Below the pieces are notes generated by a model that saw only the letters and a list, made by a program, of their open reading frames with translations, was not told the origin of the DNA and ran no database searches. Shown in pieces: positions 4,505 to 54,950 of a stretch of DNA of 64,000 nucleotides (its first letter is position 1; each line of letters opens with the position of its first letter). The translations under genes and the position numbers were made by a program. This DNA is from Beroe forskalii (Eukaryota > Ctenophora > Nuda > Beroida > Beroidae): contig WFMF01000021.1 in NCBI GenBank assembly GCA_011033025.1, positions 186,001-250,000 on the forward strand, given 5' to 3'.

Positions 4505-4554
4505 ATGATTATTGGCCAATCCGACAAAAAATACCTCTACTACCTTGTCATCAG
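4505..4554 (+). CDS. Exon 1 of the zinc-finger gene (start of CstF-50-like module)
   Basis: Encodes MIIGQSDKKYLYYLVI plus two bases of a split Ser codon. With exon 2 this restores ISQLLQDGH. The equivalent exon of the homeobox gene (17295-17356) ends in the same phase and reads KQYLYYLII plus AG. The ATG at 4505 was chosen because the frame has a TAG 25 bp upstream, unless that TAG is a 3' splice site. Confidence 0.8.
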
Positions 4555-7500
4555 GTATGCAATGTTGTTAAATGTAGTTTTATGTGGTTAAGGGGCAGGG
4601 GGTCTTTGGGGTGGCGATGGCCAAATGGAGTTTTGGCTTGAAATGACGAGGGGAGCATCCTAGCTACCAGAAAAACTTCTTTTTCTAGCATGAGTTATGG
4701 GATTTTGAAAATCGGAATTTGCCCCATATTAGAGTGTGAGGGCAAACTTTACCTCAATTTGCCAAAAATGAACTTAAGAATTTATCTCCTCCCCTTAATT
4801 AAGAGTTTTTCCCACCTTTCAATAGAGATTAAGATCCTGCTGCAGTTGCAATTCAAAAATACTACCTCAAATGATCAATGCCATTGATTTTGTCTTGTAC
4901 TGATGATAAGCAATTCTAATTAGTGTTTGTACAGAACGGCATCAATTAACTTTGTTAGTTGCTTATCACTTATTGAGAAATTGATGGCTCCCTATTCTAA
5001 CCCTTTTGAAAGTGGTTAGAACCACTATTCTGTCTGATTCCATAGTTTCGTACTAAAATAATTCCACTTCCTTATTGGCCATTATTTAACCGGCCCTTGG
5101 TTTGGCAACTGCTTGCAAAATTTTTGTCCAAGGGGCCGGTTGAAATGGATCAAAAATGATTCGATTTTTGTCCATATTGCCGGTTAAAAAAGGACCAGTT
5201 AAAAAAAGGCCGGCTAAATAAAGGCCAATAAGGTATTTTTGAAATAGGAACTAGTAACCCCTTATTAAAGAAAGTGAATAATGATCCACGTCTTGATCAT
5301 CTCCACTAACATGATATATTTCTGAACAGTAAATCTGTCTATCAACAGGGCGAAATTGTATAGCCTTCCTCTACCCAATCAGAATAAGTCTCATACGTAT
5401 ACTATATATATTTCCAATTACCCAGAGCACATGGTAAATTATTATAATTTGTAATAAATTTCATAAGTATCCCACAAATCGTAGGCGGTAACCTGTGACG
5501 TCATAGTCATGATCCAAAGTGGTGTGTTATGGCAGCCGAACCGCCTGTTCTGAAATGATTAGAAAAGATTACAGCTTCTCTGTACTGAATTAAATAAAAT
5601 TACACTGTCCAGATATGCCTGGAGATTTATTATTATATGTTATGAGGGAGAGAGCTGACTTTTCAATTATAAAATGAATAATTTTGGTATCTTTTCAACA
5701 GGTTGATGAATATTAAATTTATATATAAAAGCTATATAGTTATTCTAAGGATTTATCCAATACTACTGTAATTTGTTAATTTTCTGTAATTTACGATGCG
5801 CCAAACTGAGCTATTTTGAGATGTCTGATCTACCTGCAATATATTACGAAATTTAGAATTTCCTTCCTCGATTTTGTGTCTCCGACCAGTATTCTTGAAT
5901 TTGTTCTTTTGAATTGCACTTCCTGAAAATAGGAACTTAATACAAAGCAACATTAATTATTGTGTTATAATCAAAATTATAATTATCAATGAAAGATAGG
6001 AAAATATTTTGACAACTAAAAACTTAATTCTGTATTAAAAATGTACAAAAGATGTATGATCATTATAGCGAACAATGGTTAATTTTTTATCTTTATCTTC
6101 AGTGTAGTGTCCCGGACTTCTATCTTTAATAGTTTAATATACCTGAAGTGAAGCGAGTGGATGGGTTTTGTGTTGGTACCATAGATTAGGATGGTAAAAT
6201 GTCAAAATGTGTGTATGTGTCGGCGTGTGTATGGGACTCTGCGTCGGCATCAAAAATTAGAATTGGTAGAATGGGAAAATGTAAAAATGTGTGTATGGAT
6301 TTTGTGTCGGCGTGTGTATGGAACTCTGTGTCGGCATCATCAAAGATAAGAATGGGAAAATGTGTTACACATGGATTGTGTCAGCATGCACGTGCAGATA
6401 GGCAAACCTGTTTTCGCAGCCATTGTAAAATGTCTTATTTTCGTTTCCTGCTTTGTTGGAATTTGTTTCGCGAGTCCCCTGAACTTATGTTCTGATTGGA
6501 ATTTTACGTCGCTGTAATGTTGTGTCTGACTTTCGGAAAATGTCCGAATTCGGAATCTTGTCCGACACGGATATCTGTCCGAATAGCTAATTTCAGTTGT
6601 CGGACTGTCAGACCAATGTCCGTGTCGGACAAATGTCCTAGAATCAATTAAAGTTTTTCATAATTTGAATTGAATGGGTCGGACAAGACGCTGTTTAGCA
6701 GTGCTAAGTGAGCTGTGTAGTACTAGCAGGCTGTACGGGCCTGCTAAGCTACTAGTAAATCAGATTAAACATATTATTATGTTGTGTATTCAACATTCTA
6801 CTCAATAATGTACACTATAGGTGACGTCACATGTACATTCTAGCACTGACTTATAAGATAACAGATTGATGAAAACATTCTCAATAAACTCACAGATAAT
6901 TTGAAATTTGATATCACTAGGCATAATGATAATAATATTATTTCGTTTAAAGTTCGGCATTTTCATAAATTGGGTGTGTACAGTGTACAGTCTACTTGAC
7001 TTATTATATCGCTGTGAGAGAAAGGAAATTAATTGGATTAGCATGTTGTACTGTTGTGGAGGTCGCTTGTCGAGGATTGTATTGAAAACAACCGAAAGGG
7101 CTTGCCTCAAAAATATTACAGTTAAATAAATGAATTTTTATCATAATCATAATCACAGGTTTGTTGCCTGTTTGTTGCCTGTTTGTTGCCTATTTGTTGC
7201 ATGTTTGTTGCCTGTTTGTTGCCTGTTTGTTGCCTGTTTGCTTGGCAGTTCTAAGCATGGGCCTAGAAACGCGCTTGTCTATTTTTCAAAGAGGTATTGA
7301 TACTGGTACACCTCACTCAAATTATTTCACTCCTAGCTTATCTGGTCTGATTGGCTAGTACTATTTGTGTTAATTACAACAGGAAAACAATTTATCCTGA
7401 CAGGAAAACCTAAAACACCGTAATTAAATTGATTCGTTGTGCCATTCTATGACATATATTGAGATTTATGACTTTTTGAACAATAGATATCTGTAAGACT

Positions 7501-10112
7501 GAACCAGCCTTTACTCCAAGGGGGTGGCTTTTCTCGATCTCTGTAGGAAACGACCAGTTAACTGAACCAAAACCGAAATACCGGTTAAGTTCCGGCGTTT
7601 CTAGCGAACCAAAACCGAAACCGTAACCGGATTTATATGGAAATGGTAACCGGATTTATATGGAAATGGTAACCGGATTTATTGACAAATGGTAACCGGT
7701 CCTCTGACTGACTTTCCTGCAGCCAGCTGCTCCAGGACGGACACAAGCAACAAGCCCACCAACTGGAGCAGGTTACCCTGCAGAGCAGAGGTCTTGTGAA
7801 ACCCAGCGACAAACTCTGGAATCTCTTCTCTTCCTGCCTCCTCAGCGTCAATGAAGTGACCAGCTTCTTCAGTGCTAAAGGTGGGTACTGGGTGCCGGGT
7901 GGGCGTGGGTCTGGGTCTGGGTGTGTACGTGGGTCTGGGTGTGGACGTGGGTCTGGGTGGGTGGGTGTGGGTGGGTGGGTGAATGGATACCAAAAAGTCA
8001 AATAGGGGTTAAATTTATGGAAGTTATCTACCCTCTCCAAATTTATTTTATGCTATCAGAACGGTGATACCTACTTTGTTTTATATCATAACACATCGAA
8101 ATTTTTCAGATGTCTCCGATTCAGGTCAGACTGAATCCTCAGTGAAAGAACACCCCACCTCTTCAGTTTCCACCCCTACCACATCACCCTACCGTTCCTC
8201 CCTTCCTCCAATGTCCTCTCCAAGCATCCCTTCCACCACAGTTCCATCTGTCACAGCCCTTCCTCTCCCTGCCTCTCTACCCACCTCTTCTCAGTCCACA
8301 CATGAGGTGTCCAATTCCTCAGATTCAGGAGCTTCCCCACCAAACCCGAGCCATCAGAGTCTACAAGAGTCCCTGCAAGAGTTGCTGAGTAGTGAAGTAG
8401 TGCCAGTTACATCAGGTAATGTTCTGACGAAGGACTCTATCACAGAAGTAGTTCAGATCATCAACAACTTGTCCAAGCTGAATAATCCTTCGAATGTTGA
8501 AGATGGAGAGAATGCGGTTGTCAAGGAAGAACCCATGGAAGCAGACCCTGTGAAGATATCCCGAGCACTGGAAACACTGCAGCAAACTCTGAACGGAGTG
8601 ACAGTTGTCAATGGTGAGGATGGTGGTATTGGAGGGTTGCCAAATGCCCTGGAAGGGACGCCTAACATGTTAAGTCTGAGTGTTGAGAACGGGGGACATG
8701 TTAATGTAGAAGATCTGAGCGCTGACTTGTATGAACACAGTCCAGGAATGCTGAAGCAGTTCTCCCTCGCAGATAAGCAACTCAAGTGTACTAAATGCGA
8801 GTACCTGACGTTCAGTAAAAGGGCCTTTACACTGCACTTACGAAGTCACGATGATGCACCGGTGAGGAAAGGGGAAAGAATCTCATTTGCCAAACACAAC
8901 TACAGTGGCAACAAACTGGTGCTTCGACCTTATGCTTGTAAGCTCTGCAAGTACCGAGCTCCATCCCGGATACAGTTGACATTGCATGTCCGTACTCATA
9001 CTGGAGAGAAACCCCATTCATGTCCTTACTGTGACTACAGGACGGCTCAGAAGGGAAATCTGAAGAAGCACATAGAATTTAGGCATGCCAAGACAGAGGA
9101 CAACGTCCACACTTGCAACGTATGTGGGTTCAAGACTTCCTCCAAAATGCAGCTGTCCCTGCACATAACCTCCTCCCACAAGGAAGAACCGTCTTCTCAA
9201 GGGCTGGAAGAACCAGAGAAGAGATACATCTGCAAGTACTGTGACTTCAGGTGTGTTTGGGTGGGCAGTCTGCGGAGCCACATGTTTGATAAGCACCCTG
9301 ATCAGATGGACAGGTCCCGGTCAGATCCGCCGGAACACAAGTGCACTCTGTGTGACTACAGCTCGCAGTGGCGAGGCAACCTCAAAACCCACATCATGAG
9401 GAAACACGCCGAACCAACACCCACAGACGGCTACTTCCACTGCAAGAGGTGCACTTTCAAGTGCAACAACAAGGACGAGCTCAGCTTACACTACGATATT
9501 CATGTATCTGACGAGCGACCGTATCAGTGCACTTTGTGTGATTACCGGGCTGGTCTCAAGAACACTCTGGATACCCACATGAAGTACAAACACAGCACAG
9601 AGAAACCGTTCAGTTGCAGTGTCTGTAGTTACAGGTGTGTCACCAAGGGGCAGTTAACTATACACCAACGAAAACACACTGGAGAAAGGCCTTACAAATG
9701 TCCCTACTGTTCGTATGACACGGCCCAACAAAGTAATTTGAAGTCCCATGTCAAGCATCGCCACCCACATCAAGAACAAGACATATTCAACTCTAGGCGA
9801 GGGAGGAAGAGAAAATACCCTTCGCCTTATCTGGATGACAATAGCAATACTTTCTTCAGTGCAGCTACCATGGCAACAGGACCTTTTCATGCTGACTACA
9901 GTGTCAGCAGTGACAGCTACATGACTAATGTCTGTGAGAATGAGAGTAGTGTGGCTCAGCATGGCAATGTGACTTCTGAGGATCAGCAGGACAAGACCAA
10001 GTTAACAATAACCCAGAGACCAGAGTTCAGTCAGGCAGGTTTTAAGCAGGATGCACCTAATTCTTCCAAGATGGAGGTGATGGTTCCTTGTGATAGTAGT
10101 AATAGCTCATAG
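4505..10112 (+). CDS. C2H2 zinc-finger protein with CstF-50-like N-terminal dimerization module
   Basis: Model: exon 1 4505-4554, exon 2 7723-7880, exon 3 8110-10112. The joins keep one frame (phases 2 and 1) and give 736 codons plus TAG. Donors are ATCAG|GTATGC and AAAG|GTGGGT; acceptors are CTGCAG|C and TTTCAG|A. Residues 1-69 resemble the CstF-50 homodimerization domain (motif KKYLYYLVISQLLQDGH, then PSDKL). Next comes a long Ser/Thr/Pro-rich linker with a VKEEP sumoylation-like motif near 8515. Residues about 294-621 hold ten C2H2 fingers, mostly of the CxYCDY/CxLCDY type seen in REST- and hunchback-like factors. Finger linkers are canonical TGEKP-type only in places. A basic RRGRKRK stretch follows finger 10 and could be a nuclear localisation signal. 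Likely a nuclear DNA-binding regulator; targets unknown. A further 5' exon is possible because CTTTTTCTAG before 4481 also looks like an acceptor. Confidence 0.88.
4605..4870 (+). repeat. Intron 1 segment shared with the homeobox gene
   Basis: Blocks such as GGGGTCTT, GGCCAAATGGAGTTTTGGCT, GAGCATCCTAGCTAC, AGAAAAACTT, TTTGCCAAAAATGAA and TTATCTCCTCC occur in the same order at 17621-17830, just after exon 1 of the homeobox gene. This is either a paralogous intron from a local gene duplication or two copies of one transposable element. An inverted partial copy at 17930-17990 keeps the second option open. Confidence 0.65.
5070..5233. mobile_element. MITE family B, copy 1
   Basis: Terminal inverted repeats CCTTATTGGCCATTATTTAA and its near complement ending GGCCAATAAGG. 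The arms include CCGGCC blocks. The same termini flank a longer element at 33427-33840, where TA abuts both ends. No coding capacity. Confidence 0.7.
5234..7159. other. Zinc-finger gene intron 1: minor repeats only
   Basis: Intronic in the gene model. It contains a degenerate family C relic near 5486-5556 (GGCGG...TGACGTCATAG...CCGCC), a short duplicated GTGTGTATGG/GTCGGCGTG stretch at 6200-6390, and an inverted repeat TCCGACACGG/CCGTGTCGGA at 6561-6630. No further gene is seen. Confidence 0.5.
7160..7241 (+). repeat. 11-bp tandem repeat (TTTGTTGCCTG)
   Basis: About seven copies of TTTGTTGCCTG with single-base variants, within intron 1 of the zinc-finger gene. Another short repeat (AACCGGATTTATATGGAAAT, three copies, 7625-7698) lies immediately before the acceptor of exon 2. 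Confidence 0.85.
7882..7985 (+). repeat. G-rich repeat directly after exon 2 donor
   Basis: Degenerate GTGGGTCTGGGT units begin at the splice donor of exon 2 (GTGGGTACTGGG). There are many GGG triplets on the coding strand, so G-quadruplex formation in the pre-mRNA next to the 5' splice site is possible. That last point is inference. Confidence 0.7.
8784..9765 (+). other. Array of ten C2H2 zinc fingers
   Basis: Each finger shows C-x2-C, about 12 residues, then H-x3/4/5-H. Successive finger starts are LKCTKC, YACKLC, HSCPYC, HTCNVC, YICKYC, HKCTLC, FHCKRC, YQCTLC, FSCSVC and YKCPYC. A spacer of about 40 residues with basic character separates fingers 1 and 2, and a short acidic spacer separates fingers 4 and 5. 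All Cys and His ligands are present, so every finger can in principle fold. Confidence 0.92.
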
Positions 10113-10690
10113 GTTCTTTTACATTTTCATAGATCACAAGCTCTCAGTGGTTTGTAATATGATAATCCCACCAAACGATTATGACTCTGAATCTAATCCA
10201 AGTAAGCCAGAGATCCTGTCCAGCGATCAGATATCTCTGATAACAATTAATAACATCGATATATGAAATGTAGGTATGGACAATATTTTGTGTTATAATT
10301 TTTGAACTTTACATCCTTGCCTTGGCATTTGCAGGTTCTAAATGCACTGAGCTGAGGCAAATGTTGCTTTCCCTGAGACTCATTTATAATCGTGTTTATT
10401 TCAATGATAATTTAACATAATATGTTATACTAAAAGTAAACCATGCATAACATTTTGTATTTTTGAGTTTGTGTGTGCATTGACTTTATAAGGCTTTGGC
10501 ATGTTGAAAACTGATAACTGATGAGTGTTTTGTGGTTTTGGAGTGCATTTATTTCTATGTTTGAGACATTCTGAGAGGATCCTAGAAATATCAAATACAG
10601 GTGTGAACGATGATTTGATGTGTTTTATTAAGTGGTGATAAGATAATTATGAAGATTTGGATGTGAATAAAGGATTGCCAAAATCAAATT
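10113..10690 (+). other. 3' untranslated region and polyadenylation signal of zinc-finger gene
   Basis: The stop is TAG at 10110-10112. The first clear AATAAA is at 10666-10671, a plausible poly(A) signal about 555 bp downstream. No other gene starts in this segment. Confidence 0.5.
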
Positions 10691-12615
10691 CAAATTTTTC
10701 ATACGAAAATCATGAATTCTGAAATCGGAGTATTACGCCCTCTTTGAAGTGAAATAATATTCTTTGATTTTGGCATACAGTTATATTCCTTATCAAATAG
10801 AATGGACATTGAATTTCTTGGTCATGTACTATGATGCTTATTCAGATATAATATGCAATGCCTCTTAATTATATCCAGTTAATTGATAATTCAGTGATTA
10901 ACTAAAATTACATTTAATTCAGTAATTTCAAACTAACTTAAACATGAACGAGATACAAAATGCATATATAATGTATATTGTATTTGCTATATATTTGAGT
11001 TTATATTTTTTTAGGAAATGCTAACTGCATGGCAATATTATGTTTTAATTGATATCTTACATATAATCGGTACATATTTACCAGTTCACAAATACATATA
11101 TAAATCAAATCTTTTAGCAGCTAGTTTATATTTTAGTTATATATAATGTAATCTAATGGTGGTTATACGAGACAATCAGACAGTTTGCTAACGTATGCAT
11201 AATAACAGGCTACCCAACTTATTGAAGCATGTAGAGTACCTGAGTAAAGGGATTGTATGCATTAATCAGTGCAATTAACAATGAGTACAACCTTTCCAAA
11301 AGGTGCGTAGTGCGTACTTCTCATCATTAAATATAAACCAGCTTTTGTGATATATCATTTTCCTTAAAGCTAACCATTTATTGTGCACTTCATCATACAA
11401 CCATCTAAATTTTATAAATATTAATCCTATGATACTGTGATAATACCTTATATTAATGGAAATAGGAAATTCAGATAATTCGTCTTCTACCCAAACTGAA
11501 GGCCGAAGGGTTTAGTAACGAGTAAAAAGGGCGAACCGTAATATTACACACGAGTGGTCGAAGGTCCCAATGTTATCTATCACATTGAGACCGAGGCTGA
11601 AAGCCGAGGTTTTTATTGCAAGGGTTTTTTCTTTTTACGAGTTAATGAACTGAATCATGCACAACAATTGAATTAAGGTTCAGTCATTTTTGACTCCTTG
11701 AATGCACCTAAACCTAACTTACCTGAATTCTAGTGGTCGTGAAATTACTCATGCATAAAAACCACTGTTATAATCCACCTGATATTAACCCATTGCAAGC
11801 CAGGTCCTATTTATAGTACCTTTACATTGGAGTAGTTACTGACATAGAGGCATGTAGTGAGCTGAATATGTGCTCCTTTTGTAAAACTTAGGTAATTTAT
11901 AATTACCTTACAGCTCAACAATTGGTTAGTTTGACATCGTCAATTCGCCATTCTAAACCCTGGTCATGACTTCACTCCCCACCGTATGTTACCCATGTTA
12001 GGGTTGTAATTGAGTAATTGCACTGCCCCCACAGTAACTAATTGACAGTGGGGGCAATTAGTTAACCTTGTAATTATCATGTGTCCTGACGCTACGTCTA
12101 TTGTATGTTGTGAGGATAGATTCTAGACAATGTTTTGTTATAGTTTTCCCTCAGTTAATAAGGTTGCCACTCATCTTGCGGGAGATTGGTGCCATGTTAT
12201 AAGTGCTGCCCTCTTTTTGTAATTGCTTGGTGACGTCACTGATATATTGTTTTCCGAGTATCTCAGAATAGAATATAAAGTTTACTTCAGATAGTTTTCC
12301 CCCAAACAAAGGAACAATTGATCTAGGCCAGCGTAACACACCGTTGTCCCTGCTAGGGAAAACCTTTTTGTAACTTACGTAAATTTTTTTACATAAGTTA
12401 CAAAAAGCATTTGAATGGTTTTGCAAGCTCTCCCTATTAACAAATCAAATCAAGTAATTAAAAGGGGAAGGGAATGCTATGTTTGGGTATTGCCAACTAA
12501 AAATAATCTGAATTATCTGAATTATGATTTGCTTCATATCAAATTATTAATTTATGGGTATTATACAGATTATAATGGTGAAGCCCATTACTCCTTACAT
12601 ATTGTTGAAATGCTC
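10691..12615. other. Gene-free DNA with one MITE and one palindrome
   Basis: No coding signal. 11513-11646 is an inverted-repeat element with ends TAGTAACGAGTAAAAAG and CTTTTTACGAGTTAA; a relative lies at 16446-16527. 12364-12408 is a palindrome (CTTTTTGTAACTTACGTAA against TTACATAAGTTACAAAAAG). Confidence 0.55.
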
Positions 12616-12887
12616 TACCTTAGTACACCTAAGAACGGCATCACGTAATTGGCGCGCACTTTAAGATCGGCGCACTTTATTAGTGCGGTTTTTATGACTT
12701 GAGATCGAAAACGATAATCGATATGGAATTGAGAACCGAAATATGTATAAAAACGAATTCGAAAAACGCAAAATTCACGAAATTGTTCACTTAATTTCAT
12801 GTGCACTTAATTACTGTACACTTAATTAGTGCGGTTTTTCCCAAACCGCACTAATTAAGTGACGCCGTTCTTAAGTGTACTAAGGTA
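12616..12887. mobile_element. MITE-like element, TACCTTAGTACAC termini
   Basis: Terminal inverted repeats TACCTTAGTACACCTAAGAA and TTCTTAAGTGTACTAAGGTA, extended inward by ACGGC/GCCGT and AATTAAGTG-like blocks. An internal motif TTAGTGCGGTTTTT is repeated in both orientations. About 272 bp, non-coding. Confidence 0.75.
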
Positions 12888-14067
12888 TATCAAACCCAGA
12901 TTATTAACTATTTTATGTGAATGATGATTAAATTTCCATATAATTGTGAAGTACTTAATAAATCATATAGCATCATCTTATATATGATGGGACACTGAAA
13001 TAGGTTCACTTTAATTGTGTTACTGTTAGTTTTCATTTTTAGAAGTATGATGGGTAATAAGAGACGTTGGACACTTAAATTCTGGTATGGAACTCTAAAT
13101 TTATGGATTGAAGCTTTTGTTGATCAGTAAATTATATTCTAGCTTTATTACTATTGATAACACATTGATATCAACGGGCCATAGGCTTACACTTACCCAC
13201 AAGTCCTCTTGACACTGACCAATCAGCAAGTGTGTCAGAGGCATGGAGATTTCGGGGTGGGTATAAGCTAACACGCCGCAGATGTTAATAATGAAAGAGA
13301 AGCTGCGAGTGTGAAATTAAACCATTCATCGAGCCAAGGTTTTGATTCAAATATAGCTCCCATGATGCAGACGTTTTAGCGCAAGTTATTTTAGTGCGTG
13401 TAAATATTATATAGTCATAGAAAGCGTTATAATTGATGCATTGGATGTTGTAAAATTAAAAATTTCCCTTTTTCTATGCCATTCATTCAATTTATTCCCG
13501 CCCTGGCCAGGGCGGTAACCCCGGCGGGAAAGAAATTGAGGACCGGGACCTATCTAAAACGATTTGTTGTAAAATTTTAGGTCTAAGATAACATTTTTAT
13601 TGGTACACGACATGTACATAAACTTAAATCGCGTGCTACAGAGACGGAACTGACCAGGATATTGCCTCTTTGTAAATAGGGATGAGAAATAATGGACCAA
13701 ATTGTGGTGCACGTTAGTTTACGCGGAAGTTTTGTAGAAATTATGGAATTCAAAGAAATTGATATTTACACGGGATTTTTATCTTGATAACGTTGAAATA
13801 AGGTCAAATACGACTAATGCACGTGAAATTAGAACTGGTTATTTCAAATGGTTTCAATATTTCAGCTCGTGAGTTCACGTGGACGTTTTTAGGAATCAAG
13901 AAATACACCAATTTTGTTAATGAATACAAAATATACTAACAAGGCTTCCGATTGCATAAAGGTGTGTTACGTAGATTCTAACTGCGTGAGGACTAGTTAC
14001 ATGAGTTTCAAAACTGCGTTTCGGTAAGTTACGTGGGTTCCAACTGCGTACATCTGTAAAGATATTG

Positions 14068-14210
14068 CCACCAAAACCGTTAGACGGTTGGTCTAGTAAC
14101 CCCCTGCGAGGTTGGATGTGATAACGGGATCTTAAAATGAGACAAAATGGACTGACCCTGCACCCAACCTCGAAGGGGATTACTTGACCAACCGTCCAAC
14201 GGTTTTGGTG
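14068..14210. mobile_element. Inverted-repeat element (CCAAAACCGT arms)
   Basis: Left arm CACCAAAACCGTTAGACGGT and right arm ACCGTCCAACGGTTTTGGTG, continuing inward with GGTCTAGTAACCCC/GGGGATTACTTGACC and CGAGGTTGG/CCAACCTCG. The stem is about 48 bp with a loop of about 45 bp. The rest of 12888-15271 shows no gene; a palindrome around GCCCTGGCCAGGGC lies near 13501-13515. Confidence 0.75.
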
Positions 14211-15271
14211 ATACATCCTGGATAAAAACAGAAATTGTTACACGTTTTTATACACTTTCACTGAATTTCATATCATAATTTGCATCTACTTTAAAAGTTT
14301 AAAACTGATTATATAGCATATAATAATATACTGTGATAATTGTTAAAAGAATTAAAACAACTTATAGAGTTGCTGGTTTGAAATATAAGTTTGGTAAATT
14401 TAAAGTTAATTAAAAAGGTAATAAAATAATTTTGTCCTGTGCTAATTTGGCGCTCATGATATAATATAATTATGATAATTTTGTTTTATTTTTACTAAAC
14501 GTTAAAAAGATTAGATTTTGATGAGCCTTTGGGTAAATTTTTGGCGTGAATATGTTTTTACAAGATATATATTGTTTATTTTTATACTCGGTGTAATGCA
14601 AACCCCAATATTCAATGTCTAAAAATCTCTCTTTTTTATTTATTACGAGTGAACCGTTGTTAATAAATTTGAGATGTCATGTTAGGAAAGGAAGATCTTT
14701 TTAAATTGGTGTAATCATGCTTTCACTGATTAGTAAATTGAGCCACTAGTATAATTTATGAGTGAATTTTGAAGGTATATTTCTCTCGTCTCAATGTGAG
14801 TTAATGCTCATTTGACCTGCGTGATATTAAGAGATTGTTGAATTGCTAAATTAAACAAGTATCCAGGACAAGTTGTATAACCAAATATTACAATGGAGTT
14901 GAAAGGGCTTTCTGCTCTTGTTTCCGGCACCAAAACGACCGAAAAATACCACAAAAGTTATGACATTTTATTTTCTGGAGCTTTTTTCAACGGAGCGGTC
15001 AATCTTTATTTTCAGTTCCCAGAAATGCTGTTACCAACGACCTTGCAATCGAAAAAATCAGTGCTCAATCATGATTCACAAATTCCAAGAATTTGAAGCC
15101 TGGAGCCTTTTTTTCTTTTCTCTGTAATTGACCTAAAAACTTGCCCGGCTCTTGCCGAAATTATACCATCAAAATTATCCTATGCCTCTTTGACTTTGCT
15201 AACATTTCATCTGTTTGACCCGCTAAATTTTATATTCTGTATGGCTTGTGAATTGTAGGATATTAAATGCT

Positions 15272-15360
15272 GCGCACGAGAAATAGGCGGGTAGGATGAC
15301 GTCATTATCATAGCTCAATGTAGTGAGTTGATGACGTTGAACCGCCTATTTCTTGCGCGC
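15272..15360. mobile_element. MITE family C, copy 1 (carries TGACGTCAT)
   Basis: Termini GCGCACGAGAAATAGGCGGG and CCGCCTATTTCTTGCGCGC. The interior has GTAGGATGACGTCATTATCA and a second GATGACGTTGA. The CRE palindrome TGACGTCA sits inside. Further copies are at 23059-23175 and 32672-32754. Confidence 0.8.
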
Positions 15361-15749
15361 ACCGTATAAAAACAGCCTGTTTACGGAACGTTTATCCAAT
15401 TAAAAGGTGCTGGAATCATTAGTTGAAAATATATTTTCAAGGATTGAAAAGCAATTCTTTAGCTTGTATCTTACTCGTAGTATATATATTATAATGCCAG
15501 TCTTATAAACAATCATGCTCTTTGTTCTCATAATTACTTTGACATAATATAAAGTGAATAGATCCTGCAGGGTGATATGTTGAGATATTATAGCAGTCGG
15601 GAAATTCTAAAAACAACGCAAAATCGATAATTTTATCATGTCAGTATTTATTTCGTCGTTTTGACCTAATCATTCATCGATTTCAACTGAAAAGGCTCAG
15701 GCTGGATCACATTTTTAGTTTTTAAACACGACTATCGGTTTGCTGATGT

Positions 15750-15840
15750 GGGGGGTAAGGCAAACTTTTGCAAACCTTTCCACTTTTTTTGGAGTTTGCC
15801 ATAGTTTGCCCAAGTTTGTCATAGTTTGCCTTACCCCCTC
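15750..15840. repeat. Inverted repeat of GGGGGTAAGGCAAACTTTTG type
   Basis: Left end GGGGGTAAGGCAAACT and right end AGTTTGCCTTACCCCC-like sequence, with internal TTTGCCATAGTTTGCC repeats. About 90 bp and non-coding. Probably a small MITE. Confidence 0.6.
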
Positions 15841-15937
15841 CTGATGTCAAAGCGACCCAGCCACATGCTCACCAATCGTTAAAACCCTGTCGGATCTAAT
15901 ACACTTTATTAGCTCTTATTGAAATGTAGCCTTTAAT

Positions 15938-16136
15938 CAGGGGCGTAGCCTGATATCAGGGGCGTAGCCTGATCAGGGGCGTAGCCTGATATTTTTGAAA
16001 AAGATGCGGTGAGTTACATTGAAACCTGTTGATTTTTATTTTTCTTGGCTCAAAGCTCTTATCGTACAACAAACTTTTTATAAGTTGTTAGTCAAAAAGG
16101 GGAGGCCTGTGTCGCCTTCCCCCTGGCTACGCCCCT
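15938..16136. mobile_element. hAT-like MITE (CAGGGGCGTAGCC termini)
   Basis: The ends are CAGGGGCGTAGCC and GGCTACGCCCCTG, the CAGGGGC form common in hAT elements. The left terminus is tandemly repeated three times with a spacing of about 20 bp. No matching 8-bp target duplication is obvious. No transposase. Confidence 0.7.
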
Positions 16137-16445
16137 GTCCCTGATGTGATATTATGCTTTAAACTATTAAACGTCTTCCTCAGATATATAATGATAAATG
16201 ATATACATTGCTTTTACTTTGAAATCATCAACACCATATGTAAGTTATTACGATCCAATAGAACTCTCTGCTATTACATTCTACTTTTATTATATTTGAT
16301 AGAAATTCCCGCTGTTTTACTCTACATTTACATTTCATTTTTCTAAAAAAATAGTTTACTGTAAAAAAAGAAATTATAAATGGGCCCTTATTTATTAAAC
16401 GGACCAAATGTTCTTTTCAAAACCAATTGACATTTTAAAGGGTTA

Positions 16446-16527
16446 AGTAACGAGTAAAAAGTGCATCCGTGATTTTACACACGAGTATTTAATATCGCAT
16501 TGTAAAGGTTTGCACTTTTTGCGAGTT
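16446..16527. mobile_element. MITE family D copy (AGTAACGAGTAAAAAG)
   Basis: The left end AGTAACGAGTAAAAAGTGCA and the shared inner block TTACACACGAGT match the element at 11513-11646. The right end is TGCACTTTTTGCGAGTT. Short, non-coding. Confidence 0.6.
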
Positions 16528-16569
16528 CCCTATTAAACTGAAATATGGACCGACCATATTCGTTAAAAA

Positions 16570-17279
16570 CTTCCACAGTAGGAAGTTTAAATGGCTCCCA
16601 TAAACAACTCAATCAATGTAATTTAATTTAAATAATTTCCACCGTAGGAAGTTTAAATGGCTCCCAAAAACAACTCAATCAATGTTATTTGATTTAAATA
16701 ATTTCCACCGTAGGAAGTTTAGATGGCTCCCAAAAACAACTCAATCAATGTTATTTGATTTAAATAATTTCCACCGTAGGAAGTTTAGATGGCTCCCAAA
16801 AACAACTCAATCAATGTTATTTGATTTGACTAATTTCCACCGTAAGAAGTTTAGATGGCTCCCAAAAACAACTCAATCAATGTTATTTGAGTTAAATAAT
16901 TTCTACCGTAGTTAGTTTAAATGGCTCCCAAAAACAAAAACGACTCAATTAAGGTAATTTAATTTAACTAATTTCCACCGTAGGAAGTTTAAATGACTCC
17001 CAAAAACAAAACAATCAATGTAATTTAATTTAACTAATTTCCACCGTAGGAAGTTTAGATGGCTCCCAAAAACAACTCAATTATTGTTATTTGATTTCAA
17101 CCGTAGGAAGTTTAAATGGCTCCCAAAAACAACTCAATTAATGTAATTTAATTTAACTAATTTCCACCGTAGGAAGTTTAAATGGCTCCCAAAAACAACT
17201 CAATCATTGTAATTTAATTTAAATAAAACAACTCAATTATTGTTATTTAATTTGACTAATTTCCACCGTAGGAAGTTTA
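16570..17279 (+). repeat. 66-bp tandem array abutting the homeobox gene start
   Basis: About eleven imperfect 66-bp units containing TTTCCACCGTAGGAAGTTTA, ATGGCTCCCAAAAACAAC and TCAATCAATGTTATTTGA. The last unit stops at GGAAGTTTAG, 15 bp before the ATG at 17295. Most units hold ATGGCTCCC followed by a stop after about ten codons, so any transcript starting upstream would carry several minimal uORFs. Whether the array is transcribed is unknown. Confidence 0.85.
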
Positions 17280-17294
17280 GCGTATCATGTGAGA

Positions 17295-17356
17295 ATGAAG
17301 CTGGACAGTGTCCCTCTGCCAACGGAGAAGCAGTACCTTTACTACCTTATTATCAG
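17295..17356 (+). CDS. Exon 1 of the homeobox gene
   Basis: Encodes MKLDSVPLPTEKQYLYYLII plus AG of a split Ser codon. With exon 2 (18479-18546, T CAG TTA TAT...) it reads IISQLYRDGYMEAG. The 3' end of this exon and its donor are the seed of the 24-bp array that follows. Upstream sequence is the 66-bp array, so the promoter is not visible. Confidence 0.8.
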
Positions 17357-20300
17357 GTACCTTTACTACCTTATTATCAGGTACCTTTACTACCTTATTA
17401 TCAGGTACCTTTACTACCTTATTATCAGGTACCTTTACTACCTTATTATCAGGTACCTTTACTACCTTATTATCAGGTACCTTTACTACCTTATTATCAG
17501 GTACCTTTACTACCTTATTATCAGATACCTTTACTACCTTATTATCAGGTACCTTTACTACCTTATTATCAGGTACCTTTACTACCTTATTATCAGGTAC
17601 CTTTACTACCTTATTATCAGGTGGGGTCTTGGCCAAAGTGGAGTTTTCGGCTAGAAATGATAGTGGAGCATCATAGCTACTAGAAAAACTTAACGTAATT
17701 ACTAATTTGCCTGTAATTACAATATGCGCGCAAACTTCAATCACGATTTGCCAAAAATAATCTTAGAAAAAAATCTATCTCCTCCACATTTTTTGGAGAA
17801 TCGTCCTGAAACTTTCCAGAGATGTTCTAGGGTTCAAAATAAGGAGATTTGTCCAAGGGATTTTTGTTTCATGCCACAGAACCGAAAATATTCGATTTTG
17901 AATTTTCGCGCTTCCGTAAAGTGTTTCTGGTTGCTATCATGCCCCTCTATCATTTCTAGCCGAAAACTCCATAATTTGGCCATCGACATTCGACACCCTT
18001 TTCCGATTCTTCTAGGTTTTTTTCCTTCGTCTCCCCGCTGTACACACTGTACAGTGTACATGTGTACATGTGTAGAGCAATTAGCTAATGATCACCTAAA
18101 GTACAGTGCAGGTATAGTGAACATGTGTAGAGCAAATATCTAGTGATAATCTAAAGTACAGTGTACATGTGTACATGTGTAGAGCAATTAGCTAATGACT
18201 GGCTAATGTTAAATGATGCTCTGCATCTGCACTTGTCACGAACTGTTTTAACACAGATTCTTGAAGTACATTGCAATCAGTCAAAATTTCTTGAGAGAGT
18301 GAACAAGAGAGCCGATATTTTAATATTTTGCGAATCTGGACCCTCCGAAGGTGACTGATATGATACCAGATGGCCCCGGGTTAACAGAATCTACTCGGGG
18401 CATTTCCCCGGGGTAGCAGAGTTTCACCGGGGCATTTCCCCATCCTATCTTTGTAACCCCTCCCTCCCCATCCCTCAGTCAGTTATATAGAGATGGGTAC
18501 ATGGAAGCGGGAATGCGCCTCGAGATGAGTGTCCTCGAATCAGCAGGTATTGATTTACTATACCATATTCATACCATAGATTCATACCATGTTTATACGT
18601 TTATACCATCTTAATACCAACTTTATACCATCAATTCATACCAACTTTATACAATTCATTCAAGGGAATAAGTGCTCAGCGGTCAGCCCGATGCCGCCCC
18701 TTTTACGCCCCCATAGTGCCATGGATGTACTTTGGACACCCCTCCTGTAACTTATAATTCCTCTACTTCTAGAAGATTTAGTACTTTCTAGAACTTCCTT
18801 GAAGTTCTTCAACTAACAGAATTTAATCATAATGCTAAATTTTAAATGAAAATTGGGAAATTTATGCTGTTTTCATCATGCAGAACCTACCTTTTGTTTT
18901 AACCCCCTTTGGTCTTTTCCTTAAGACCAGTTATCGTTTCAAGCCCCGGGGTAGAGAAATAAACCACCACAAAATACCAGGTCTTGTAATATTCCTTTTA
19001 ATGAAATTCCTTTTCCAGGACAAGTGTTACCTAGCAACCGGCTAAGCAGCATTCTATCGGAATGTCTGCGGAGTTTCAGTGATCTGACTGATTATCTCTC
19101 CACCAGAAATAGCAATGGTATGTTGAACTATTGAGCTAAACACAGCTATAAAGCTCTTGACACCTAAAACCCCATCTACACTTTTATCCTTAGCGAATCT
19201 CCCCCAACGCCCCTCTAACCCCCATTATCCCCTCTAACTCCCAACACCCCTCTTACCCTTATTAACCTTTTATCCCCTCTAACACTAATGCCTCCCCTAA
19301 CCCCCAATACCCCCTTTATACCCCATTATCCCCTCTAACCCCCATTATCCCCTCAAACCCCCAATGCCCCCTCTAACCCCGTTGACACCCTTCTCTAATC
19401 CCCAATGCCTCCCAGCTTTGAAGCCGTTGACACCACCCTCGCCCCCCTCGTCTCTGGTGAACCCCCTGCAGCGGTCCCCCCTCACCACCTCCAGGAAGAG
19501 ACTCCACTCAGGACCAGCCACTACCTCCTCCTCCTCCTCCTTCTCTACCTCCTCCTCCTCCTCCTTCCCTGCCCCTTCCCCTCGTAACCCATCGGTGAGA
19601 ATTATTATCATTATGTTGTCTTAGACACTAACAAAGTAATAATATTATGATAATTTTGCAAAAATTTGGTTCACATCATAAATTGTAGACCAGCCAATTT
19701 ATAGACCAGCTAATTCATAGACCAGCCAAAAGCAGCAATAGGTGGAAATATTTTTTAATGTCCCCTCGTAACCCATCGGTGAGAATTATTATCATGATGT
19801 TGTCTTAGACACTAATAATAATGATAATTTTGCAAAATTTTATTCACATCATAAATTGTAGACCAGCCAATTATAGACCAGCCAATTCATAGACCAGCCA
19901 AAAGCAGCAATAGATGGAGGTATTTCTTTATGTCCTTCCACCTAAAGATTAAATGCTGCCCAAAAAGCAGACCTTATAAGTACTTGTATAGCTGTTTGTT
20001 TACGAGAACTTCCTCCTACAGTCAGCAAACAGTAACAAGTACACTAATTCCTAACACCCCCTCCAACTCACGATACCCCCTCTAACCCCCAATACCCCCT
20101 CTGAATCCCAACACCCCCTCTATCTCCCATGATACGCCCTCTAACTCCTAGTACCCCTCTAATTCCCAACACCCCTCTATCTCCCATGATACGCCCTCTA
20201 ACTCCTAGTACCCCTCTAATTCCCAACACCCCCTCTATCTCCCATGATACGCCCTCTAACTCCTAGTACCCCCTCTAATTCCCAACACCCCCTCTATCTC

Positions 20301-23300
20301 CCATGATACGCCCTCTAACTCCTAGTACCCCCTCTAATTCCCAACACCCCCTCTATCTCCCATGATACGCCCTCTAACTCCTAGTACCCCCTCTAATTCC
20401 CAAACACCCCCTCTATCTCCCATGATACGCCCTCTAACTCCTAGTACCCCCTCTAATTCCCAACACCCCCTCTATCTCCCATGATACGCCCTCTAACTCC
20501 TAGTACCCCCTCTAACTCCCAACACCCCCTCTAACTCAAAATATCCCCTCTAACTCCCAACACCCCCTCTAACTCCCAATACCCCCTCTAACCCTCTAAC
20601 CCCCAATACACCTAACTACCAATACCCCCTCTAACTTTCATTATCCCCTCTAACCCACATTATCCCCTCTAACTCCCAATAACCCCTCTAACTCCTAATA
20701 TCCCCTCTAACCCCCAACACCCCCTCTAACTCCCAACCCCCCTCTTACTACCAACACCCCCTCTAACTTTCATTACCCCCTCTAACCCACAACACCCCCT
20801 CTAACCCCCAACACCCCTTCTAACCCCTCCTCCTGACAGCAAACAGCAACACCCCCTCTAACTCCCAGTACCCCCTCTAACCCCCAATACCCCCTCTAAC
20901 CCCCAACACCCCCTCTATCTCCCAATGACCCAATACCCCTCTAACCCCCAGTACCCCCTCTAACCCCCAACACCCCCTCTAACCCCTAATACCCCTTCTA
21001 ACCCCCAACACCCCTTCTAACCCCCAACACCCCTTCTAACTCCCAACACCCCTCTAACCCCCAACACCCCCTCTAACCCCTCCTCCTGACAGCAAACAGC
21101 AACAAGCACCGTGTTCCCGGGCTTCCCTCCTTCCTCCGAAGGGGTCTACACTTCCTCCTCCTCCTCTCTTTCTACAGAACAACTCACTGAGGACACCTCC
21201 AGGGTGGGGACTCCCCGGGAGAACGTGAGGTCTCAACTTTCTAAGGTGAGGAGAATGTGTAATTTAATCATTATGATTCTCAGATTTGTCTGAAAACACA
21301 AAAACTGGAGACATTTTCAATTTTTGATTGAGTAAGAAAAATCCAGCATCTTAGGTTGAGTCTGCGCCATCTTCAAAAGAAAAACCTTACAGGAACTAGA
21401 GGAAATCTGCAACGAGACCGAGGCCGAGTTTGAAAAAAGGTCCGATTTTGGCCGAGGCCGAGTACTCGGTCGTTTACTGATTTGGTGCAATTTCGTAGCC
21501 ACTATTATTTCCCAGGAACTAGAGGAAATCTGCAACGCTGCAGTTGCTGATGTGAGACCGGACCCAGTCCCCACAAAGACACCAAGCTCTGTTCGACTCG
21601 ACCCCTCACCTGCTAAAGATCCTCTCCATCACCATACAACCACGCAAGGACATCTCCTACTGCTGCAATCCTAGTCGAAACAGGTAGTTGGGATCACTGG
21701 TTTCTGGAAAAATTTCTCATTGGCCATGTTACTCAATTTTCGGTCTTTTAGCGAAATGGCATCGTTTTTGTTTGGGATATTTGGGCTTTTCTGTAATGAA
21801 AAAAGTCAAAACAGGGTTTAATTTTTCTAGGTTTTATGGGTTTATCCGGTGTTAATAACTGTTGTCCCCCACCTTGGTTTCTCTCTAAAATCATGACTGA
21901 CTTCATTATATCTTTTCCACCTCGCCCCTTCTAACAGCACCTCTCCTCTTCACCCCCCATTGCCTTCTAACACCACATCTCCCTTAGTTCCAACTGCTGC
22001 AGTCAGCAGACAGACATCTGCCACCTCAGTCGACCCTACCACCCCCTCCCCAACCGTTACAACCCTCGACAAGCTAAAACTCGATCCTGGTGGCATCGCT
22101 GACACCCGTATAAAGATCGAGCCCGGTGTCGAGATTAAGATCGAGATGTCCGACTTGGAGGAGGCAGTGGATTCGGGTCTGACGGCTGCTTTGCTCAGCA
22201 AATCTCCGTCACTCGATCCGAGCAGTGATGTTCTGAACCACAGGTGCGAGCTTCTGGTTACTTCTTGTCTTTTCTCTCTCTTTTTCCCAGAAGAGAGGGA
22301 GAAGACTATATTCGGCGTATTAGAAATTGGCGGATTGCTCGGATTTTCCACAGCTTATCGCGTGATCACCTTCGTATGTGATAGCAAATGGAACAATCAG
22401 ATGGTTGTATCTGACGTTGACAATATCAGGTACAACCATCTGATTGGTCCATTTGGTATCCAACAATAAGGAGATCACGTGATATATCACGTGATTTTCC
22501 ACAGCCTATCATGATAGTTTTTGGAAAATCATAGCAATCCGCCAATTTCTAATACGCCGAATATAGCCTTCTCCCTCTCTTTTTCCCAGAAACGTGAGCC
22601 TAAAAATGGAATTTCCGTTCTCTCCTTTTTCCATTCAATTCCAGTGGTATTGCTCGTTCCGACAGCAACATTCTGGGCAATAACTTGATGTTGAATTCGT
22701 CCGGTTTTGATGTGAATGCTGTGTCACATTCATTATCACAACATATTACCCCATCGACAGAATGAAACGATTAACACACGGACACTGTAAATTCCTTTAT
22801 TTGTCTACCATAATGCCAAACAAATTCATAAATCACCAAAAATGCCCTCCTTACCTCCTCTTAAAATGATAATTTATGACAGTTGCGTATTTGTAATACT
22901 ATCGATATTACACTATTACAGACGATACATATGCATATCCAAGCTGATAATTTATGTCGCCTCGACTGGACTGAATTTTTTTTTTATTTACTGAAAAGCG
23001 ATTCCTTTTGATGACCGGGGCAATATGGATGTGAAGTTTGAATAACAAATTCCTCACACTATACGCCACGCGGGAGATATAGGCGGGTAGGATGACGTCA
23101 TTATCATAATATCAGTATATCATGATGTAGCGAGTTGATGACGTTGATCCGCCTATTTCTCGTGCGCCGAGTATAACCCTTTCACTATAATCCCAGTGAG
23201 AACCCGTGCAGTAGCGCTAACTCCACAACGACTGCCACTGACGAAGCAGCAAAAACCCTGCTCGACAATCTGAGCAGCATATCCAATATCAGCGAAATCG

Positions 23301-26300
23301 GGGATATTTCCGAGCTGACACAGAGCATCGTGGAGAGTTTAGTTCAGGTTAGTGGATTGTCTACAGTCTAGGTGTGTGGATGTGGGGTTTCATTATGTGG
23401 AGAGTTTAGTTCAGGTTTGTGGATTGTCTAGGTGTGTGGATGTGGGGTTTCATTATGTGGAGAGTTTAGTACAGGTTTTTGTGTTGTCTAGGTGTGTGGA
23501 TGTAGGGTTTCATTATGTGGAGAGTTTAGTTCAGGTCGGTGGATTGTCAAGGTGTGTGGATGTGGGGTTTCATTATGTGGAGAGTTTAGTTCAGGTTGGT
23601 GTGTTGTCTAGGTGTGTGGATGTAGGGTTTCATTATGTGGAGAGTTTAGTACAGGTTAGTGGATTGTCTACAGTCTAGGTGTGTGGATGTAGGGTTTCAT
23701 TACGTGGAGAGTTTAGTTCAGGTTTGTGGATTGTTTAGGTGTGTGGATGTGGGGTTTCATTATGTGGAGAGTTTAGTTCAGGTTGGTGTGTTGTCTAGGT
23801 GTGTGGATGCAGGGTTTCATTATGTGGAGAGTTTAGTTCAGGTTGGTGGATTGTCTAGGTGTGTGGATGTGGGGTTTCATTATCGTGGAGAGTTTAGTTC
23901 AGGTTGGTGTGTTGTTTAGGTGGGTGGATGTGGGGTTTTCATTATGTGGAGAGTTTAGTACAGGTTGGTGTGTTGTTTAGGTGTGTGGATGTGGGGTTTC
24001 ATTATGTGGAGAGTTTAGTTGGTGGATTGTCTAGGTGTGTGGATGTGGGGTTTCATTATCGTGGAGAGTTTAGTTCAGGTTGGTGGATTGTCTAGGTGTG
24101 TGGATGTGGGGTTTCATTATCGTGGAGAGTTTAGTTCAGGTTTGTGGATAGTCTAGGTGTGTGGATGTGGGGTTTCATTATCGTGGAGAGTTTAGTACAG
24201 GTTTGTGGATAGTCTAGGTGTGTGGATGTAGGGTTTCATTATGTGGAGAGTTTAGTACAGGTTGGTGTGTTGTCTAGGTGTGTGGATGGGGTTTCATTAT
24301 GTGGAGTTGGTTCAGGTCGTGTTGTCTAGGTGTGTGGATGTGGGGTTTCATTATCGTGGAGAGTTTAGTACAGGTTGGTGTGTTGTCTAGGTGTGTGGAT
24401 GTGGGGTTTCATTATGTGGAGAGTTTAGTTCAGGTCGGTGTGTTGTCTAGGTGTGTGGATGTGGGGTTTCATTATCGTGGAGAGTTTAGTTCAGGTTGGT
24501 GTGTTGTCTAGGTGTGTGGATGTGGGGTTTCATTATGTGGAGAGTTTAGTACAGGTTGGTGTGTTGTCTAGTGTGGATGTGGGGTTTCATTATGTGGAGG
24601 TTTAGTTCATTATGTTTGAGTTTAGTTCAGGTTGGTGTGTTGTCTAGGTGTGTGGATGTGGGGTTTCATTATGTGGAGAGTTTAGTTCAGGTTGGTGTGT
24701 TGTCTAGGTGTGTGGATGTGGGGTTTCATTATGTGGAGAGTTTAGTTCAGGTTGGTGTGTTGTCTAGGTGTGTGGATGTGGGGTTTCATTATGTGGAGAG
24801 TTTAGTTCAGGTTGGTGTGTTGTCTAGGTGTGTGGATGGGGTTTCATTATGTGGAGAGTTTAGTTCAGGTTGGTGTGTTGTCTAGGTGTGTGGATGTGGG
24901 GTTTCATTATGGAGAGTTTAGTTCAGGTTGGTGTGTTGTCTAGGTGTGTGGATGTGGGGTTTCATTATGTGGAGAGTTTAGTTCAGGTTGGTGTGTTGTC
25001 TAGGTGTGTGGATGTGGGGTTTCATTATGTGGAGAGTTTAGTTCAGGTTGGTGTGTTGTCTAGGTGTGTGGATGTGGGGTTTCATTATGTGGAGAGTTTA
25101 GTTCAGGTTGGTGTGTTGTCTAGGTGTGGGGTGGAGAGAGTTCAGGGGTTTCATTCATTATGTGGAGAGTTTAGTTCAGGTTAGTGTGTTGTCTAGGTGT
25201 GTAGATGTGGGGTTTCATTATGTGGAGAGTTTAGTACAGGTTTGTGGATTGTCTAGGTGTGTGGATGTAGGGTTTCATTATGTGGAGAGTTTAGTTCAGG
25301 TTAGTGTGTTGTCTAGGTGTGTGGATGTAGGGTTTCATTATGTGGAGAGTTTAGTTCAGGTTAGTGTGTTGTCTAGGTGTGTAGATGTGGGGTTTCATTA
25401 TGTGGAGTTTAGTTCAGGTGGGTGTTGTCAGGTGTTGGATGTAGGGTTTCATTATGTGGAGAGTTTAGTTCAGGTTAGTGTGTTGTCTAGGTGTGTGGAT
25501 GTAGGGTTTCATTATGTGGAGAGTTTAGTTCAGGTTGGTGTGTTGTCAAGGTGTGTGGATGTGGGGTTTCATTATGTGGAGAGTTTAGTACAGGTTTGTG
25601 TGTTGTCTAGAGGGGTTATTCATAAGAATGAGACTGAGACTTAAGCCAGAGACTCAAATCCGAGACTCAAAAAAGTAAGTCAAAAATTTTGTATTCATAA
25701 ACACGATCCAAGCCGTGAGTCTCTGGCTCATGGCTTGGATTTCAGCGAGTCTCGGATCATTGACTCATAATAATGGCTCATTGGCTCAGTCCTTTGGATC
25801 ACCGGCTTAAGTACCGGATTACTGGATTATGAGTCTCGGCTTGCCGCGCATTGAGTCTCGGCTTGCCGCGCATTGAGTATCGGATCACGGGATTTTGAGT
25901 CTTGACTCAGTGGATTGCACATTTTGGCTTCTTTTTTAAGTCTGCGAAGCTGAAACTCAATTTTTTGGATCATTCGGCGGTACGGCTCAGTGTCGGCTCA
26001 CTAAAAGTAACAATAAACTCATAAGCCTGCTAGATAACTGCATGATCGAAACGGGTAAATTGACAAGTCTTATATCACCTATCATAATTTCGTAAAAGCT
26101 GAAATATTAAAATGTGACATCATCATCGCGTAAAGGTAAATCCAACAAATAAATTCAAAAGAACGACGATCAAATGTAAAAGTTGAGGTCTAAATAGCTA
26201 ATAGCACGGATGGAGCAAACATAGATCACTTCGACGATTAAGTTGCACGGCTATTCTGGACTCAAATGTCTATGAAAGTTTGATACTGTCGAAAACAAAA

Positions 26301-29300: not shown

Positions 29301-30715
29301 ATTACCGAACTCCATTTAACCCAGACCACGGACGCCAATCAGAACAGAAGGATTTCAACTGAAAACGAAATAAAAATGCTGCATTTCACCTTATATTCTG
29401 AGATATTTTTAAGGAGAATAGAAAATATATATATCAACTTTAAAACCGGCGCGCTGTGCATTCAAAAAAGACGTGGAAATTGGTTCTAATTGAAAAGATA
29501 CAGGATCGAGATTGATCTCCGCCAGTTTGACATTAGAAAGTGGTCCTTGATGGTCCACTGTGGAGCATTGGAGTCTGAAGACACGTGTGTTGTAGACCAA
29601 AAGCTTGCAGTTAGACGTCATCAATTCCTCACTCTAACTCATGATAATGACGTCATACTAGTACTGAGTGGGAGCGAGACTAGGGGAATGAAACATTTTC
29701 TAATATGTTTTAACAAACATGTAAATAAATGCTCATGTTTATGTTTGGTATTTAAATTGAATATATATGTTAGGTCAACACTTAAAACAAAAACCATTCC
29801 AATGCATCTCTACAGTCCACATATTTAAAAGTTTAAATGTTTCACAGTAGGTGTGCACTGTGCATCCTTGAATTTAAATCAAGGATTATTTTTGAAAGTT
29901 TACACATTGAAGTCACAAGTCAATCAAAATCAAAATAAAAAAGCTGTTTTCACCTGTATCAGTTCTCATTGATCCCCCTGATGTCCAATTGGAAAATCTG
30001 CTAAAATCTGAGTGGTCTCAAATGTCTTTTTTTCCCCTGCTGGCCTCATATGAGTTGTCAAAGCAAGTCCTAAAACTTTCAATTTTCAAAATATCGTCAA
30101 ACTGAAAACACCAATAGGCAGCTGGCTTATTTGAGTGATATGTATCTCAGTCCATAAGATTTTTACTTTTGCTACAAAAAATAGAGAAAGGTAAGCTGAT
30201 TCCGCATTTATAAGTACCAGCGGCCCCTGAGACTTTACCACCCTCACTCCCCTGCTCCCCTCAGGAAGCAAGACTGAGTGCTCCTCTGGAGGAGGGGGCA
30301 GCAGCTCCTCCTCTCAACTCCTACTCTCGAGTGGGGGAGAGGGGACCCACTCCATCCCCCTCTAACTCCCCCACTACCACCCTCACTCCCCTGCTCCCCT
30401 CAGGAAGCAAGACTGAGTGCTCCTCTGGAGGAGGGGGCAGCAGCTCCTCCTCTCAACTCCTCCTCTCGAGTGGGGGAGGGGGACCCACTCCATCCCCCTC
30501 TAACTCCTCGCAGTCGGAACAACTCAACTTGTACAAGCAGAGTAATACCCTGCTCAATATCATGGGGTACAACTGCCACAACTCACGGAATAGGCCCTTC
30601 AGACGACATAGAACACGGTTCAACGACGATCAGGTTTGCGGGGAGATTTGATTGCTTAATTTGTTAATTGGTTAATTGGTTAATTTGTTAATTGATTGAT
30701 TGATTGGTTAATTTG

Positions 30716-54920: not shown

Positions 54921-54950
54921 TGAGCTACAGAGGAACCCCTGAAAAAAGAC

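Follow-up and report, generated by a model that had tools for sequence, protein, structure and literature searches.

A shared N-terminal module in two putative transcription factor genes

The window analysed here is a stretch of 64,000 nucleotides from the ctenophore Beroe forskalii (contig WFMF01000021.1, positions 186,001 to 250,000; this contig is C259 below, and positions with a contig label are those of the contig). Two neighbouring genes on its plus strand, one encoding C2H2 zinc fingers (the ZnF gene) and one a homeodomain, begin with the same type of module, which matches the homodimerisation domain of the mRNA 3'-end-processing factor CstF-50 (CSTF1), see Table 1. The three exons of the ZnF gene join into a single frame of 736 amino acids, with 10 C2H2 pattern matches in exon 3. 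In the homeodomain gene ten exons with AG/GT borders form a 529-residue frame, with a stop ending at 31965; the splice sites of the seven later exons were hand-picked for phase, and the model is plausible. The spliced protein matches the Homeodomain profile with 42.2 bits (E=7.2e-11, cut-off 22.9); the homeodomain is divergent and is assigned to no class.

The module had been noticed in a preliminary description of this DNA, made from the letters alone. The exon coordinates proposed there have proper borders, and the exons join in phase. In both genes exon 1 ends with AG and exon 2 begins with one base followed by CAG, i.e., the phase is indeed the same. The two N-termini align without gaps, as described, with 27 of 69 residues identical and a local alignment score of 147, where the maximum in 2000 shuffles is 44. 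Past the split Ser codon there are exactly 19 identities in 52 residues, as had been counted, and none of 200,000 shuffles reaches this number (the maximum is 15).

Table 1. Exons of the two genes in the window and the minisatellite at the first splice donor of the homeodomain gene.
Feature	Position in window	Strand	Content
ZnF gene exon 1	4505..4554	+	Start codon and first half of helix 1 of the module, MIIGQSDKKYLYYLVI, then AG of the split Ser codon; GT donor
ZnF gene exon 2	7723..7880	+	One base of the split Ser codon, then the remainder of the CSTF1_dimer module (QLLQDGH...); AG/GT borders
ZnF gene exon 3	8110..10112	+	Ser/Thr/Pro-rich linker with KEEPME motif, C2H2 zinc fingers, basic tail, stop; AG acceptor
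Homeodomain gene exon 1	17295..17356	+	Start and first half of the module, MKLDSVPLPTEKQYLYYLII, then AG
Homeodomain gene exon 2	18479..18546	+	Mid-module, (S)QLYRDGYMEAGMRLEMSVLESA
Homeodomain gene exon 3	19019..19117	+	End of the module (QVLPSNRLSSILSECLRSF...)
Homeodomain gene exon 4	19416..19594	+	Predicted linker
Homeodomain gene exon 5	21093..21245	+	Predicted linker
Homeodomain gene exon 6	21516..21551	+	Predicted linker
Homeodomain gene exon 7	22014..22243	+	Acidic linker (IKIEPGVEIKIEM); start picked for phase
Homeodomain gene exon 8	23197..23347	+	Predicted linker; end sequence repeated in a 60-bp minisatellite
Homeodomain gene exon 9	30232..30633	+	Linker plus homeodomain N-terminal arm (RRHRTRFNDDQ); exon start uncertain
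Homeodomain gene exon 10	31756..31965	+	Remaining homeodomain (...IMLWFQNKRARDKRK...) and stop
24-bp minisatellite	17333..17622	+	12.1 copies, 99% alike; unit is the exon 1 end and splice donor of the homeodomain gene

The module matches the dimerisation domain of CstF-50

The preliminary description had pointed to the CstF-50 domain on the basis of a residue pattern, and a Pfam profile search bears this out. Both N-termini exceed the curated cut-off of CSTF1_dimer (PF16699, 26.6 bits), with 41.6 bits (E=1.1e-10) and 36.5 bits (E=4e-9), and no other Pfam family exceeds its cut-off for both. Inside the full predicted homeodomain protein the module still scores 30.9 bits. Among solved structures, the best match of the homeodomain module is 2xz2 (CstF-50 isoform B, E=0.00045), with other proteins from E=0.12, and that of the ZnF module is 32pv (CSTF1, E=0.002), with other proteins from E=0.5. 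The same family is thus recognised by profile and by sequence, in the same N-terminal position. What follows the domain is different: in CSTF1, where it serves mRNA 3'-end processing, it precedes WD40 repeats, while the modules described here precede linkers and C2H2, homeodomain or forkhead domains. At the E-values used, Pfam lists no WD40 for the predicted homeodomain protein, nor for the whole protein of C283, a paralogue discussed below.

The genome's own CSTF1 is a separate gene on C494, with 431 amino acids in one open frame without introns (locus C494:24285-24464, minus strand). Among the best 120 of 639 matches to it at E<=1e-20, the top two are 93% and 80% identical, and the remaining ones have 45-52% identity over 96-100% of the query (P0068 has 55% over 79%).

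A genome-wide family of eleven genes

The whole genome (216 Mb in 1134 contigs) was searched with PF16699. At E<=10 there are 13 places: CSTF1 itself, a match on C170, and 11 family members, i.e., ten genes and one duplicate. The C170 match (15.9 bits, with an internal stop) was dropped as chance. The homeodomain gene of the window, with its module divided over short exons, is not among these 13 and adds one more member, and besides CSTF1 the family occupies 12 places, with 11 genes and one inverted duplicate. The sharing of the module by two adjacent genes is real, but the two are not a unique pair; both belong to a genome-wide set.

Nine further modules were scanned, and all match CSTF1_dimer, with 18.3 to 42.5 bits; six of the nine reach the cut-off, one of them exactly. 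In a held-out test, a profile of ten modules recovers the eleventh at E between 9.3e-23 and 1.3e-5 among 11,169 six-frame peptides of the DNA stretches examined. Everything ranked above the held-out module is genomic sequence of family members, and the best reversed peptide has an E between 0.23 and 2.1. Consensus queries gave 11 places in one search and 3 in another, all already known, and added no new member.

Six genes (both window genes, C1079, C199, C1047 and a third gene on C259 at about 166 kb, here C259 166k), as well as the duplicate of the last one, have a phase-2 intron that splits one and the same Ser codon. Their exon 1 runs for about 11 to 20 codons from the Met and ends AG|GT within the Ser codon. 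No convincing exon 1 was seen for C14 (10.4 kb searched) or C474 (1.5 kb searched), and C1025, C525 and C283 have no intron at this position.

Partner domains of the module

Over the 11 genes, the module is accompanied by C2H2 fingers in five (the window ZnF gene, C14, C1079, C525 and C283), a homeodomain in one, a forkhead in one and a sequence without Pfam domain in one; in three no partner was found. The clearest case is C283, where one intron-free open frame of 545 residues contains both the motif LLYNLIRSQLEFDGYKR and six C2H2 fingers, so that the fusion there is independent of splice prediction. The module of C283 is the one recovered at E=1.3e-5 by the profile of the other ten. Together with the phase-consistent models of the window genes, this paralogue supports the joining of CSTF1_dimer to C2H2 fingers or a homeodomain that had been suggested from the window.

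The fingers of C283, C14 and C525 are over the zf-C2H2 cut-off in Pfam, those of C14 lying about 16 kb downstream of the module. In C474 a forkhead lies on the strand of the module exon, 1.8 kb downstream of it, and no other single forkhead match in the genome scores higher (117.7 bits in the genome search and 116.5 in the Pfam scan, cut-off 27). The module of C259 166k leads into a long frame that is rich in Ser, has a basic stretch and a stop, and contains no Pfam domain; this frame has 595 residues in the inverted copy and is interrupted in the 166k copy.

For C199, C1047 and C1025, pattern scans covered about 16.4, 8.8 and 9.7 kb downstream, respectively. The patterns were C2H2, homeodomain, bZIP, HMG, GATA, forkhead, nuclear receptor, MADS, THAP and PHD; ETS, T-box, POU, SAND and bHLH were omitted. 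None of these three genes has a place in the best 150 of the 872 zf-H2C2_2 candidates or among the 24 forkhead matches of the genome. A lone C2H2-like match downstream in C1025 is isolated and was not counted, and neither were pattern matches around the two C259 copies, which lie in repeats, stop-broken frames or frames other than that of the gene. The sole Pfam match of the long C199 exon (CfAFP, E=0.037) was taken as chance. C1025 also carries a homeodomain, at 516963 and thus some 43 kb away from the module, which is not among the partners counted here. Equal-scoring C2H2 matches at C1073:2741-2797 and C525:85476-85532 may mean that the C525 gene of the family is present twice.

Evolution of the module

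A tree was made from 28 modules over 80 columns, consisting of the 11 family modules and 17 CSTF1s (that of this genome and 16 of the 120 listed matches). One branch, with support 94/95, separates the family from the CSTF1s, and this split fits one capture followed by shuffling. The nearest relative of the ZnF module is that of C259 166k, which lies on this contig but beyond the window, some 28 kb upstream of the exon with the ZnF module; the two modules have 60% identity across exon 2 and a tree grouping of 97/64. The modules of the two window genes and of the neighbouring C259 166k together make up a group that is starred in the tree (98/94), although what lies downstream is different in each (zinc fingers, homeodomain, none known). 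Such a group fits the trace expected of exon shuffling, or of local duplication followed by fusion.

Purifying selection acts on one member and on the module. C259 166k exists as an inverted duplicate pair (C259:166164+ and C259:278640-), in which the module exon is identical over 159 bases. In the long exon of the two copies, which may be duplicates or haplotypes, the nonsynonymous rate (dN) is 0.008 versus a synonymous rate (dS) of 0.044. Between the module exons of the ZnF gene and C259 166k, dN is 0.34 and dS is saturated.

Repeats and other features of the window and genome

The first splice donor of the homeodomain gene lies in the 24-bp minisatellite of Table 1, which contains 11 in-frame LYYLII-AG|GT sites, the first being the exon 1 donor. 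Donor choice within this array could insert extra RYLYYLII copies into helix 1 of the module. Further 60-bp minisatellites (23366-25610 and 27373-28429) begin just past the predicted exon end at 23347. They contain the exon-end sequence GTGGAGAGTTTAGTTCAG|GTT, which makes a second splice donor of this gene the seed of an array.

The window is flanked by an inverted duplication (C259:159384-176630 versus 262895-286562, about 85-96% alike). Several homeodomain exons elsewhere come in pairs with equal scores, one copy on each strand of a given contig; these are either real palindromes or joined haplotypes. Within the window, two long overlapping frames at 49516-54953 on the minus strand appear by eye to resemble a long interspersed nuclear element, with a PHD-like first open reading frame carrying an esterase-like part, an endonuclease and a reverse transcriptase. 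At 45929-47249, a transposase-like frame (46070-46990, minus) between repeats that occur again on the opposite strand has, also by eye, the look of a DNA transposon.

One glutamate-receptor frame has as its best PDB match ML032222a, which we take to be a Mnemiopsis protein; the top match of the reverse search, made with the ML032222a fragment, reaches only 48%. For a second glutamate receptor the best matches are kainate receptors. An Antennapedia query gives 6 homeodomain matches at E<=1e-6, all with at most 50% identity, and the SIX domain is expanded in the genome, with 23 exon matches. According to PMC2959044, Mnemiopsis has 18 SINE-class homeodomains and is without clear Hox or ParaHox genes. 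Together with the CSTF1 identities, these features point to a ctenophore as the host, and probably to one other than Mnemiopsis.

Discussion

We suggest that the CstF-50 dimer domain was captured once as a 5' module, which in most members is split by the phase-2 intron within the Ser codon. The module would then have spread through duplication and exon shuffling to C2H2, homeodomain and forkhead proteins in a ctenophore lineage. There it would let the regulators bind DNA in pairs, as homodimers and perhaps also as heterodimers of family members, as SCAN, ZAD or BTB do for zinc-finger proteins. Taken as a whole, i.e., descent of the N-terminal module from the homodimerisation domain of CSTF1, spread by shuffling and a role as a dimeriser of transcription factors, this explanation is in our judgement probable, going by the sequences compared here. 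Within it, we infer the single capture, and likewise the splicing of the module to DNA-binding exons in members other than C283.

SCAN, ZAD and BTB are N-terminal protein-protein modules on sets of DNA-binding paralogues, mainly C2H2, and lineage-specific ones such as SCAN and ZAD go along with zinc-finger family expansions in vertebrates and insects. The module described here is likewise N-terminal on DNA-binding paralogues, but it is an unrelated domain and is found on at least three DNA-binding classes. No account of such fusion proteins was found in the open-access literature searched, a set that most subscription papers fall outside.

Several observations weigh against the proposed history. 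Three of the nine further modules are under the Pfam cut-off, namely C283 (18.3 bits, E=0.0019), C199 (24.9) and C259 166k (25.2), the last two having been scanned as exon 2 alone. The joins within the modules of C525, C1025 and C1047 are our guesses, and the link from the module to the DNA-binding exon in C14, C1079, C525 and C474 is based on position and strand. The single finger of C1079 falls below the zf-C2H2 cut-off (21.8 versus 25.2 bits), and a second candidate finger exon of this gene matched nothing in Pfam. C199, C1047 and C1025 showed no partner domain in the stretches examined, and comparison of the linkers of family members gave no convincing homology. In the tree, 4 of the 25 inner branches are starred and the 94/95 branch is not among them, three rows are long and the bootstrap is not settled. 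Finally, N-terminal queries against a set of 5.8 billion proteins, restricted to those with 0.55-1.75 times the length of the query, found no relatives at E<=1 (7 and 469 candidates); the set does contain animal CSTF1s.

The CSTF1 domain is reported to mediate homodimerisation and can also bind the C-terminal domain (CTD) of RNA polymerase II (Pol II), according to PMC3287031. Given this reported homodimerisation and the selection on the family, the module is taken as a working dimeriser, and dimerisation appears to be its likely role. Homo- or heterodimers, or contact with the 3'-end machinery, as the preliminary description proposed, would all be plausible. More tentatively, it can be speculated that the module is a private ctenophore pairing code, in which one dimer domain would let zinc-finger, homeodomain and forkhead factors heterodimerise and may also tie them to Pol II or CstF.

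The main alternative is that the module is a tether to the Pol II CTD or, by pairing with CstF-50, to the CstF complex, coupling transcription to 3'-end processing. The reported CTD binding would agree with this, and so would the LIISQL..DG core, which most family modules retain as in the CSTF1s of other animals inspected. However, exactly this core has changed to LIIGQLR.DK in the CSTF1 of this genome and its two closest relatives, P0001 and P0002, with loss of ISQL..DG. Pairing of the module with CstF-50 is therefore not the obvious expectation, and we regard the tether as unlikely. Less probable still is that the module exons mainly bring a 5' exon and its promoter, the peptide having little function of its own. 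Where exon 1 was found, the module does stand at the very start, with the Met a few codons ahead, but the module is recognisable in 11 genes where the linkers are not, and dN is far below dS.

Two further explanations seem highly improbable. The likeness to CSTF1_dimer could be chance or a generic helical resemblance, CSTF1_dimer and LisH both being short helical dimerisation motifs and LisH proteins likewise carrying theirs N-terminally; but the E-values are those given above, the first solved structures matched are CstF-50/CSTF1, and LisH was rejected as the identity of the module since no LisH family is listed for the window modules in a Pfam scan to E=10 (the HMMER filters drop most matches above about 0.1). 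Equally, the module exons could belong to separate or broken genes, given introns of up to several kb, minisatellites at splice sites, transcript joins that are predicted only and the interrupted frame in one of the two C259 166k copies, but C283 needs no splicing and the two gene models of the window each keep one reading frame from the start codon to the stop.

Capture of the CstF-50 domain with a role in dimerisation would place the pairing domain of an RNA 3'-end-processing factor on at least three unrelated classes of transcription factors in one of the animal phyla that branched off earliest. It would offer a route to rewire regulators by the shuffling of 5' exons, and it predicts heterodimers across classes. 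If true, unrelated gene regulators may pair through a domain borrowed from CstF-50.

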